NCBI RefSeq assembly: GCF_020164585.1
Contig: NZ_JAIQZF010000006.1
Location: forward strand, 248,001 to 312,000
Reading direction: 5' to 3'
DNA length: 64,000 nucleotides
From: Psychroflexus curvus
Lineage (GTDB): Bacteria > Bacteroidota > Bacteroidia > Flavobacteriales > Flavobacteriaceae
Both the position numbers and the translations under genes were made by a program. The notes under the pieces were generated by a model. It was not told where the DNA came from, did not search any database, and saw only the letters and a list, made by a program, of their open reading frames with translations. Positions 21,377 to 38,104 of this stretch are shown piece by piece; the first letter of the stretch is position 1, and every line of letters begins with the position of its first letter.

Positions 21377-21692
21377 TTAAAATAAATACTTTGTTACTAC
21401 TATATTTTATAAGTTATAATTTTGAATAAGATAAAGAGCTTGTTTTAACTTTATAAAACAAGAGTATTCTTTAATGAATCACGCATCCCTTTGTTTTAAG
21501 TTCGAGCCTGCCTTCCTAAGCGGAACGCAGGCAGGCAAAGTCGAAAACCTTATTAAGCTACAAGGCTATAAATCCATCTCGACTTTTACCCTGTCTCTTA
21601 CCCTTAAAATCAATTGAAGTATACAAAAACCTACTTTAGCTTTTTGTACACATAACGCTTAGTCAACTTTTTTATGTAAAAATTTGAATTGA
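21377..21692. other. Gene-free stretch between aroQ and the S24 repressor
   Basis: No coding frame is supported here. It holds one copy of the GC-rich dispersed repeat (21493-21549) and an inverted repeat, TACAAAAA (21622-21629) with TTTTTGTA (21641-21648), separated by 12 bases. The latter could be a weak terminator or a binding site. Confidence 0.5.
21493..21549. repeat. Dispersed GC-rich palindromic repeat, copy R1
   Basis: The core GCCTGCCTTCC...GGAACGCAGGCAGGC (21506-21536) is an imperfect inverted repeat inside an AT-rich gap. The whole 57-base stretch, starting GTTTTAAGTTCGAG and ending AAAGTCGAAAACC, matches R2 at 35751-35806 with only a few substitutions and one gap. Its reverse complement shares the CCTGCGTT...GGCAGG core with R3 and R4. 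Confidence 0.85.
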
Positions 21693-24677: not shown

Positions 24678-24735
24678 ACCCGCCTGCGTGTCTTGATCGG
24701 GCAGGCCCGCCTGCGTGTCTTGGACAGGCAGGTTC
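24676..24735. repeat. Dispersed GC-rich repeat, copy R3 (two tandem units)
   Basis: Two units are in tandem: 24679-24705 and 24706-24735, the first 27 bases of each differing at three positions (core CCCGCCTGCGTGTCTTG...GGCAGG). The outer ends GAACC and GGTTC are inverted. The element fills the whole gap between two convergent genes and touches both stop codons (TGA 24675-24677 and the waaA stop 24734-24736). The second unit matches R4, in reverse complement, at 27 of 30 positions. Confidence 0.9.
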
Positions 24736-27288: not shown

Positions 27289-27297
27289 GACCCCTCA

Positions 27298-27365
27298 GGC
27301 TAGTGCGAGACTTCTGTTAGCCGACAAAGGCTTGCTCGCGACAGCGATAGGTACGAGCAAGATGC
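27298..27365. repeat. GC-rich hairpin repeat, copy A, upstream of the toxin-antitoxin pair
   Basis: Bases 27298-27331 (GGCTAGTGCGAGAC...ACAAAGGC) match copy B (28255-28288) at 32 of 34 positions. The following bases hold a second stem, TTGCTCG (27332-27338) with CGAGCAA (27354-27360). The sequence is much richer in G and C than the genes around it and contains no supportable gene. Confidence 0.85.
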
Positions 27366-28184: not shown

Positions 28185-28254
28185 AAAGTGACCTTGATTT
28201 AAAACGCAGGCGTGTGCCAGTCGGAGTACTGAAATGATAACTTAATTATAATAA

Positions 28255-28348
28255 GGCTAGTGCGAGACGTCTGTCAGCCGACAAAGGCAGTCTCGCGCTA
28301 GCAATATAGAAAACTGAGATAGGGCACGAGCGAGACGCTCGCGTGAGC
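28255..28348. repeat. GC-rich hairpin repeat, copy B, downstream of the toxin-antitoxin pair
   Basis: GCTAGTGCGAGAC (28256-28268) pairs with GTCTCGCGCTAGC (28290-28302) with one G:T pair, a 13-base stem enclosing a smaller GCC...GGC hairpin. A second hairpin, CGAGCG AGA CGCTCG, follows at about 28327-28341. The first 34 bases match copy A at 32 positions in the same orientation, 957 bases apart. Confidence 0.85.
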
Positions 28349-35750: not shown

Positions 35751-35806
35751 GTTTAAGCTCGAACCTGCCTTCCTAAGCGAAACGCAGGCAGGCGAAGTCG
35801 AGAACC
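35751..35806. repeat. Dispersed GC-rich palindromic repeat, copy R2
   Basis: The sequence from GTTTAAGCTCGAAC to AAGTCGAGAACC closely matches R1 with a few substitutions and one gap. It contains the same imperfect dyad, CCTGCCTTCC and GCAGGCAGG. It is followed by TCTCGACTCCGCTCGA (about 35814-35829), also partly palindromic. It occupies the 270-base gap between lon and porQ, which has no gene. Confidence 0.85.
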
Positions 35807-37010: not shown

Positions 37011-38015
37011 TTAGTCATCGTTCCTGATAAAATCAGAAATAAAATAGCTCAACACATAACCGATGCTTTCTTTTTGATTGGCTTCAAAACCACATATATG
37101 AAAGAATTGAGCTTGTTCTTTTCTAATCACTTTTAAAAATGTTCTTATATCTCTCACGCTAAACCCTGAAGAAGAGTCGCAACAGGAAGACAAGCCCTGT
37201 ATAGATTTTAAATCCAGTTTAAAACCCAGTTCCCGATTTAAAAAATCAACCGCATTTTTGAAACGTATACACTTATCCAAGGTAGTAAGGTGCAAACAAT
37301 CCTCATATAAATAAAAACCCAAATTTTTAGAGGAATTCATAACATCAAGATTTTCCTGGGAGACATAATTTTTATGTATCCCAAACGTATGATGCTTATT
37401 TATGTACACAGTATCAAAATAAGCTTTGTTTTGTTTGAGATGGTCTGTGTTATTTTCAAACATTACATTGACTCGTGTTGAAATATCCAAGAGGCTAACC
37501 GTTGATTTTTTAATTAAACTCACACCTTTTATGAGGTCAAATGTATTGCTGTGTTGCCCGCCAATGGCGATGGGTATTTTACCAGAAGCACAAATGGCTT
37601 GAACAATTTTATAAATAGTTTTTTCAAGTATGCTGTGGAGTAGGTTTATTTTTTCTGAACCTGCCCGTCCAAGAAACGCAGGTGGGTTTGATTCCAGTTT
37701 ATTTAGTTCTTCAGAAATGACTTCACTATCAAGTTCGCCTAAAACAATCAGGTTTTCTCCCCGATTAAACTCATTATGTTGAATATTCAATAAACTTTTT
37801 AAGACGGTCTGAAACATATCAAAGTGTCCAAGTTCAAACTCTTCGGATGAATTTAAAAGTGTGGGTATTCCAAACAACACGTACTCAGCTTCGTTACTTT
37901 CCAGTTGATCAAGACCCGTAACCGTGATGACTTTTTCTCCAAATTTCTGTCCACTTGAATCATGATGAATATGTTTTGAGAGACTTTTAGCGTCACTAAA
38001 TTTGAAATAAGTCAT
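37011..38015 (-). CDS. Arginase/formimidoylglutamase-family protein with degenerate metal site
   Basis: Protein of 334 residues from the ATG at 38015; a TTG start at 38048 would add 11 residues. Ureohydrolase layout is recognisable: the GGQHS motif (IAIGGQHSNTFDLIKG), SLLDISTRV where the family has DAHxD, and GLSSCCDSSSGFS where active members have an SxDxDxxDP motif. Several manganese-binding aspartates and histidines are thus missing, so hydrolysis is doubtful. Residues encoded by 37657-37686 (PPAFLGRAGS) derive from the dispersed repeat R4. It is convergent with porQ and divergent from a trans-sulfuration gene. It may be a pseudoenzyme under weak constraint. Confidence 0.75.
   Translation of the reverse strand: MTYFKFSDAKSLSKHIHHDSSGQKFGEKVITVTGLDQLESNEAEYVLFGIPTLLNSSEEFELGHFDMFQTVLKSLLNIQHNEFNRGENLIVLGELDSEVISEELNKLESNPPAFLGRAGSEKINLLHSILEKTIYKIVQAICASGKIPIAIGGQHSNTFDLIKGVSLIKKSTVSLLDISTRVNVMFENNTDHLKQNKAYFDTVYINKHHTFGIHKNYVSQENLDVMNSSKNLGFYLYEDCLHLTTLDKCIRFKNAVDFLNRELGFKLDLKSIQGLSSCCDSSSGFSVRDIRTFLKVIRKEQAQFFHICGFEANQKESIGYVLSYFISDFIRNDD
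37657..37686. repeat. Dispersed GC-rich repeat, copy R4, in frame inside a coding sequence
   Basis: The reverse complement, CCCACCTGCGTTTCTTGG and so on, matches R3 unit 2 (24706-24735) at 27 of 30 positions, and shares the CCTGCGTT/GGCAGG core with R1 and R2. It is translated within the arginase-family gene as PPAFLGRAG without a stop or frame break. It is clearly richer in G and C than the gene around it. Confidence 0.85.
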
Positions 38016-38104
38016 AAGATTAGGTTTATAACCTTTGAAATTATACAAAAATTCGTTTATTCAAAAATTTTATACTCTAAATCTAGTAGTTAATTGTAAT
38101 GAAT

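Follow-up and report, generated by a model that had tools for sequence, protein, structure and literature searches.

Ten or more conserved genes of one Psychroflexus genome carry an in-frame 27-nucleotide repeat, probably a mobile hairpin

The DNA analysed here, referred to as the window, is a stretch of 64,000 nucleotides from Psychroflexus curvus, whose genome carries the handle G000. A minus-strand open reading frame for an arginase-family protein runs through a short dispersed repeat, R4, and translates as ...LES-N-PPAFLGRAG-SEKIN... across it (Table 1). The orthologues suggest that this protein starts at an ATG (Met12) rather than at the listed TTG, and NCBIfam returned only a weak agmatinase match for it. 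R4 resembles the intergenic repeat R3 in the same window: positions 37657-37686 share 27 of 30 bases with 24735-24706 (minus strand) of one R3 unit and 24 of 30 with the second unit, and no further ungapped place reaching 19 of 30 was found in the 64-kb window. As R3 consists of two head-to-tail units with a period of 27, the natural repeat unit is 27 nt long. A preliminary description had claimed both the 27/30 match and the contribution of PPAFLGRAG without a stop or frameshift; both claims held, with the unit refined to 27 nt. No Rfam family matched at the R4 site. Counterparts of R3 were seen in G004 (one copy, L044) and in G024 (two, L045/L051), between open reading frames of similar lengths. 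Across the whole of G000, 3.0 Mb in 35 contigs, 13 places fit a 27-nt pattern with wildcards that allowed at most three mismatches. The same pattern read backwards gave none, and a looser pattern gave 34 matches against 1 in the control.

Table 1. Positions of the R4 unit, its host gene and related repeats within the window
Feature	Position	Strand	Description	Score or size
R4 host gene	37011..38048	-	arginase-family protein, PF00491 20.9 bits (cut-off 22)	345 aa from listed TTG
R4	37660..37686	+	27-nt unit CCTGCCCGTCCAAGAAACGCAGGTGGG, in gene, +9 residues	model R1 match 40.4 bits
R4 left flank TTCTGAA	37653..37659	+	adjoins CCTG end of unit; pre-exists in empty sites	
R4 right flank TTTGAT	37687..37692	+	frequent right-hand side among copies	
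R3 unit	24706..24732	-	one of two head-to-tail, intergenic	44.0 bits (model R1)
R3 second unit	24679..24705	-	period exactly 27	40.2 bits (model R1)
Different but related repeat class, 29 nt	21507..21535	+	outside any ORF >=100 aa	22.4 bits
Different but related repeat class, 29 nt	35764..35792	+	outside any ORF >=100 aa	22.5 bits

Orthologues of the R4 host gene are present in 34 of 59 relatives. In the three nearest (G024, G004 and G008) the aligned orthologue DNA lacks exactly the 27 bases of R4 and keeps the CTGAA on its left; identity is 63% for the G024 gene and 61-62% for the G004 gene. The G001 orthologue (L019) shows a 27-nt gap at R4 together with 12 extra bases close by, and the L018 row, which had been aligned in the wrong orientation, was disregarded. 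The protein alignment covered 28 of 35 relative places, L028 having been excluded for its stop and six others not included. PPAFLGRAG occurs in none of these 28 proteins; exactly nine columns are missing in four of them (L015, L016, L017 and L022), and the rest carry loops of other lengths, so the R4 place is a naturally variable loop. In the AlphaFold model of the host protein (mean pLDDT 83.9), residues 118-127 form a coil that joins the helices at 108-117 and 128-154, and residues 121-130 have a mean pLDDT of 48, which places the R4 peptide in a low-confidence loop. We consider it very likely that R4 is an insertion into its host gene, absent from the orthologues. The preliminary description had named two outcomes that would refute it, namely orthologues having the same residues without any repeat, and an untranslated pseudogene. 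The first is answered by the alignment above. The second is rejected, since the gene is free of internal stops in 33 of the 34 relatives that have it and its dN/dS is 0.16 against G024, 0.18 against G004 and 0.12 against G008, values that are rough because dS is high (1.5-3.1). A resemblance of R4 to R3 by mere chance is all but excluded: we found nothing in its support, and the empty orthologous sites, the 13 genomic matches against none and the lack of any other comparable place in the window all speak against it. In G000 and its nearest relatives the host protein reads LDISTRV or LDLSTHV, and in other orthologues NIDAHTD. From sequence alone we infer that arginase-type metal binding has probably been lost in this group, which would form a pseudoenzyme branch, with DAHTD kept in the more distant orthologues.

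The repeat-encoded peptides also occur elsewhere in the genome, and the phenomenon is larger than the preliminary description had stated: at least ten conserved genes of G000 hold the unit in frame, the R4 host and nine more, each with uninserted orthologues. For the nine, open reading frames around fetched copies were read and then aligned with their orthologues, using concatenated queries and some DNA alignments. The insert is absent from all aligned relatives of a 5'-nucleotidase C-terminal-domain protein (10/10) and of threonine synthase (ThrC, 6/6), for which the orthologue search listed none in G004, G005 or G017. It is missing from 8 of 10 relatives in PrmC, where G024 and G004 are filled, and from 8 of 10 in RsmE, where G004 is filled and G017 has a different insert. 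DXS lacks it in 7 of 9 relatives, with one unit in G001 and a remnant in G004; in G000 the DXS gene carries four tandem head-to-tail units amounting to 36 residues, which fall between two matched stretches of PDB chain 8a29_A. Homoserine dehydrogenase (HSD) is without the insert in 6 of 9 relatives, G004 having the eroded PESQTPEVV, G005 nine unrelated residues and G008 a different sequence. The O-methyltransferase, uninserted in 6 of 9, has 18 residues in G000 (two nested units) and nine in G024. An alpha/beta hydrolase, uninserted in 5 of 10, has 18 residues in G000, about nine in G005, a related insert in G025 and small differences in G004, G017 and G021. Finally, a glycosyltransferase lacks the insert in 4 of 7 relatives, being eroded in G024 and G004 and different in G005.

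Nine-residue inserts of unrelated sequence were observed at the same positions in other species (L102, L112, L127 and L194), namely in the O-methyltransferase of G021 and G025 and in the HSD and glycosyltransferase of G005; such positions may be hot spots for insertion, or the copies there may have eroded completely. Five more candidate genes are known to us as open reading frames alone, without orthologue comparison, with the unit in what we take from reading the sequences to be the C-terminus of an S41 peptidase in G000 (L075/L280), a DUF349-like protein in G024 (L056), a PhzF-like protein and a lipoprotein in G001 (L266, L268), and TrpC in G008 (L282).

It could be argued that the R4 segment is ancestral in its host gene and was lost in the relatives. 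PrmC, RsmE and the glycosyltransferase do have older inserts that are common to two or three species, some of them eroding, which lends this reading some support. Against it, all 28 aligned orthologues are without R4, so that the segment would have to have been lost many times over, and in the nearest species to the exact 27 nt; we regard this reading as very unlikely.

The genes that received the unit appear to be functional. When the ten proteins were compared with NCBIfam, DXS, ThrC, HSD, PrmC and RsmE scored above the curated cut-offs, the hydrolase, nucleotidase and glycosyltransferase matched below them, and the O-methyltransferase had no match. Each of the five proteins above the cut-offs is encoded by one full-length copy in G000; the same five-gene search otherwise gave partial weak matches in frames of 829 aa and 321 aa. 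For all ten genes, dN/dS lay between 0.04 and 0.18 in every unsaturated comparison (threonine synthase against G008 being the one saturated), indicating purifying selection. Taken together, the single full-length copies in the five genes checked and the low dN/dS values show that the inserted copies behave as working genes. That inserts persist in single-copy enzymes might suggest selection for the nine residues as a functional peptide motif. This is very unlikely, as the hosts are unrelated, several frames are used, the peptides vary between hosts and frames (PPAFLGRAG, TRLRFLDGQV and PARLNHAGK), and some have eroded (PESQTPEVV and SQSDRNNEAG).

An alignment of 33 copies with their flanks showed a nearly invariant CCTGCC....CAGG frame around a variable middle. 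The unit is laid out as a predicted 23-nt hairpin, CCTGC...GCAGG, followed by a 4-nt tail, YRGG, or, read on the other strand, as a tetranucleotide followed by the hairpin. The stem is 5+3 bp, made of CCTGC:GCAGG and an inner 3-bp stem, and is paired in 86% of cells. Covariation is modest: the score of the unit was reached by 6 of 500 shuffles, the numbers of double-change pairs and of further pair types were not above shuffles (reached by 434/500 and 385/500, respectively), and the 8 double-change cells are spread over two pairs, a single inner pair accounting for 7. R4 itself folds no better than its shuffles (z -0.28), and an R3 unit folds better than shuffles on one strand (z -3.23). In two G000 genes a second unit is nested inside the first, after its CCTG. 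The consensus unit has no stop in any frame and its 27 nt equal nine codons, which is why insertions keep genes readable. We considered whether openness in all six frames is an adapted trait and found this unconvincing: 15 of 31 copies have no stop in any of the six frames, compared with 34% of their shuffles, so that the property is mostly one of composition. Selection on length was likewise not retained. Copies in the validated genes are 27 nt long and other lengths occur in none of those genes, apart from one 31-base regex match, in the O-methyltransferase, which combines the CCTG of the outer copy with the inner 27, while a few copies of other lengths lie within short unvalidated open reading frames (L210, L225). 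Since repeat class and length are confounded, this pattern alone proves nothing.

The flanks of the unit point to a preferred target. In a hand-made list of 23 flanks, in which some places are counted in more than one species, TTCNGA adjoins the CCTG end at 17 sites, including 10 of the 14 genic ones, and TTT lies within four bases downstream of the unit at 18. This list omits, among others, the S41 site, L006/L007, L013, L045/L051, L047, L050, L052, L054, L055, L057 and L074. In an unpicked set of 27 places in the family, TTCNGA was found within 7 nt at 8 places and within 16 nt at 10, compared with 1 of 27 on the other side; the preference is thus weaker here than in the hand-made list. Of the 19 unpicked places without the motif, about half belong to tandem or nested groups, in which they are an inner unit or one that follows another, and true misses outside such groups include L001, L049, L050, L052 and L057. 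In 8 of 9 genes an uninserted orthologue already has TTCNGA, which identifies the motif as target rather than cargo. Exact matches are lacking in the G000 flanks of DXS, threonine synthase, 5'-nucleotidase and HSD and in the two hydrolase empty sites taken. No target-site duplication, the classical criterion for a MITE, was found at the aligned empty sites.

In the genomes searched, matches to the unit came from the genus alone. A tighter pattern matched in 5 of 60 genomes, all within the genus, and in none of the 33 non-genus genomes; over the genome collection, the exact pattern found two contigs, both of Psychroflexus sediminis, in a scan that would miss diverged kin and possibly left out the genome analysed here. 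A covariance model, R1, gave matches in 19 of 27 genus genomes, with places at E<=1 numbering at least 72 in G000, 70 in G024, 29 in G001, 22 in G004, 21 in G008 and 19 in G005, these counts being lower bounds because at most 150 candidates per genome were scored. They also lump together the gene-invading class and further CCTGCC palindromes (26-31 nt long, mostly intergenic). Loci of the unit class proper in G000 number 11 within genes, the ten proven and that of the S41 peptidase, and five to seven in intergenic DNA.

Several other repeats and arrangements were observed along the way. At L273 (G001:C4:84113-84328) eight 27-nt units stand head to tail, and no open reading frame at the first of them exceeds 91 aa. 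Another unit, L249 (G000:C1:464755-464781), is flanked by TrpC-like sequence and lies upstream of a GTPase-like gene without a long TrpC frame; it may mark a gene relic. Some units (L253, L255, L257 and L263) sit within a larger palindrome (CCCTGAA...TTTCAGGGT, ATGCTGAA...TTCAGCAT), as if they had possibly been inserted into another repeat at a similar target. The window also holds another dispersed repeat (GCGAGAC...CTCGCG) at 27297-27349 and 28254-28306, the two copies being 85% alike, which resembles palindromes GCGCGATTGCATCGCGC near Y1 transposase matches. At 342-425 the heptamer GACTCAC forms a tandem array, and similar ACTCACGA-like flanks stand beside several 28-29-nt CCTGCC palindromes elsewhere.

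Altogether, we think it likely (probability roughly 0.8) that R4 is a copy of a very small, non-autonomous, mobile REP-like hairpin of 27 nt with a preferred target in Psychroflexus. The unit is gained cleanly, 27 nt or a multiple at a time, with no target duplication to be seen, and its CCTG end frequently adjoins a TTCNGA that was there before; it can nest in itself or grow in tandem by 27s. Copies may spread by single-strand (HUH/Y1-type) transposition in trans or by a similar site-preferring reaction, and the inserted peptides would mostly be neutral loop extensions, tolerated rather than recruited by selection. The precise gain of 27 nt or multiples, the pre-existing preferred flank, the persistence in constrained genes and the erosion with age are shown. 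The enzyme that moves the unit has not been identified, transposition in trans is an inference, and neither excision nor a new insertion of the unit was observed. A bolder reading holds that the single 27-nt unit is itself the mobile entity, among the smallest known, with its own target TTCNGA|TTTRA and a nine-codon, frame-neutral length that lets it colonise coding as readily as intergenic DNA; we hold this joint claim to be somewhat less likely than not. If it were true, the unit would drive the repeated gain of nine-residue peptides across the genus, including in single-copy core enzymes.

It is tempting to speculate that a host Y1/HUH transposase, of the IS200/IS605 type or a RAYT, moves the unit as a REP or orphan end by acting on the single-stranded hairpin and its 4-nt foot, which could possibly name the enzyme that our preferred explanation leaves unspecified. 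IS200/IS605 elements end in hairpins, roughly 20-25 nt in size, at whose foot stands a tetranucleotide guide (PMC6006769), and the 4-nt tail and 23-nt hairpin fit this size and layout. The absence of target duplication, the left-flank preference and the fact that 24 of 27 genus genomes have Y1 matches, G000 having three such matches, are also in its favour. Against it, the 27-nt unit is absent from the flanks of the 25 Y1 places inspected out of 61 listed (14 + 11 distinct places, scanned for CCTGC..GCAGG palindromes), where only imperfect or shorter look-alikes were seen. These flanks hold other palindromes instead, AATCCYTTCAGGATT-like, GCCCCGAAGGGGC-like (judged by eye) and GCGCGATTGCATCGCGC-like, and on G000:C4 the Y1 match has a 29-nt palindrome of the other class some 4 kb away. 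Moreover, Y1 matches occur whether or not the unit is frequent in a genome, some sit in frames of 900-1,300 aa that are other proteins, and the sequences YINNQKEHH and YIANQKQHH in two G000 proteins resemble the motif of subclass 1.2, whose members are generally without IS200 terminal structures (PMC6006769). The unit also has no GTAG tag. There are no biochemical data, and on balance we lean slightly against this reading.

A further possibility is that no dedicated enzyme is involved, in which case template switching or repair at hairpin-prone sites would copy the unit, while replication slippage would lengthen its tandems. The exact period-27 tandems in DXS and the eight-unit array in G001, the coexistence of other GC-rich palindrome classes and the 19 of 27 unpicked places without TTCNGA would agree with this. 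On the other hand, many unlinked, clean 27-nt insertions, often sharing a one-sided motif, are not expected of random copying, and we hold this reading to be rather unlikely.

The likely mobile hairpin can be set beside several known systems. The preliminary description had likened R4 to the Rickettsia palindromic elements (RPE), and this held in part, for the mode of action and not for membership. Like the Psychroflexus unit, RPE are dispersed palindromes found in frame in many genes, where they add peptides to conserved enzymes, and the RPE trait of in-frame insertion with empty orthologous sites is met by our unit in ten genes. RPE-4 and RPE-6 are CGTC REPs with a terminal CGTC tag (often TGTC or CCTC), a stem of 8-9 bp and a short CCA-like tail (PMC3733652), whereas our unit has CGTC only internally, a 5+3 bp stem and a YRGG tail, and was not found in Rickettsiales in the exact-pattern scan of the genome collection, which diverged kin would escape. 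The unit therefore works like an RPE without being one, because it lacks the terminal GTAG/CGTC tag and differs in sequence; it also differs in being a 27-nt unit with a preferred flank in a free-living flavobacterium. Intragenic GTAG/CGTC REPs occur in diverse bacteria, where dimers or groups encode 20-30 residues and clusters 43-82 (PMC3733652), and the authors discuss that in-frame REPs may be neutral in flexible linkers or loops (PMC3733652). These are also short palindromes within open reading frames, but they are mostly intergenic with a predominance of inverted (HH) dimers, whereas the Psychroflexus copies are head-to-tail or nested and have more genic loci in G000; the GTAG tetranucleotide at the hairpin foot is replaced by YRGG (CCYR on the other strand). 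REPINs and RAYT-mobilised REPs (PMC3116915) share with our unit a hairpin with a short foot (in our unit a predicted one), dispersal and a presumed non-autonomous nature. In contrast, REPINs are inverted doublets whose singlets are held to be remnants (PMC3116915), while in Psychroflexus the single unit is apparently what inserts, and no linked RAYT was found beside it at the 25 of 61 listed Y1 places.

The statement in the preliminary description that no such case was known in Flavobacteriia also held only in part. PARCEL, palindromic amphipathic coding repeats in tandem 25-residue form, are described in Psychroflexus torquis and a 'Flavobacteria bacterium' (PMC2996958). They resemble our unit as palindromic DNA that is read as protein, but the tandem 25-residue arrays that define them are not met by units of nine residues, single to four in tandem, in housekeeping genes. 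Very small mobile repeats of cyanobacteria (Elhai 2008; SDR5) are reported to be mobile-looking units of a few tens of bases, like the Psychroflexus unit. Neither the 27-nt family nor single in-frame insertions of a dispersed repeat in Psychroflexus or Flavobacteriia were reported in the literature searched, mostly without subscription papers. In-frame intragenic REPs are thus already known from many bacteria, and what is likely to be new, as far as that literature goes, is the 27-nt Psychroflexus family. In it, a tiny palindrome, probably mobile, enters coding sequence precisely, repeatedly and apparently harmlessly in a free-living bacterium, with empty sites available in close relatives. 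How proteins come to acquire short insertions can be studied here in a tractable natural system, and the fixed length and preferred flank of the unit make it a clean case for finding the enzyme that moves REP-like single units.
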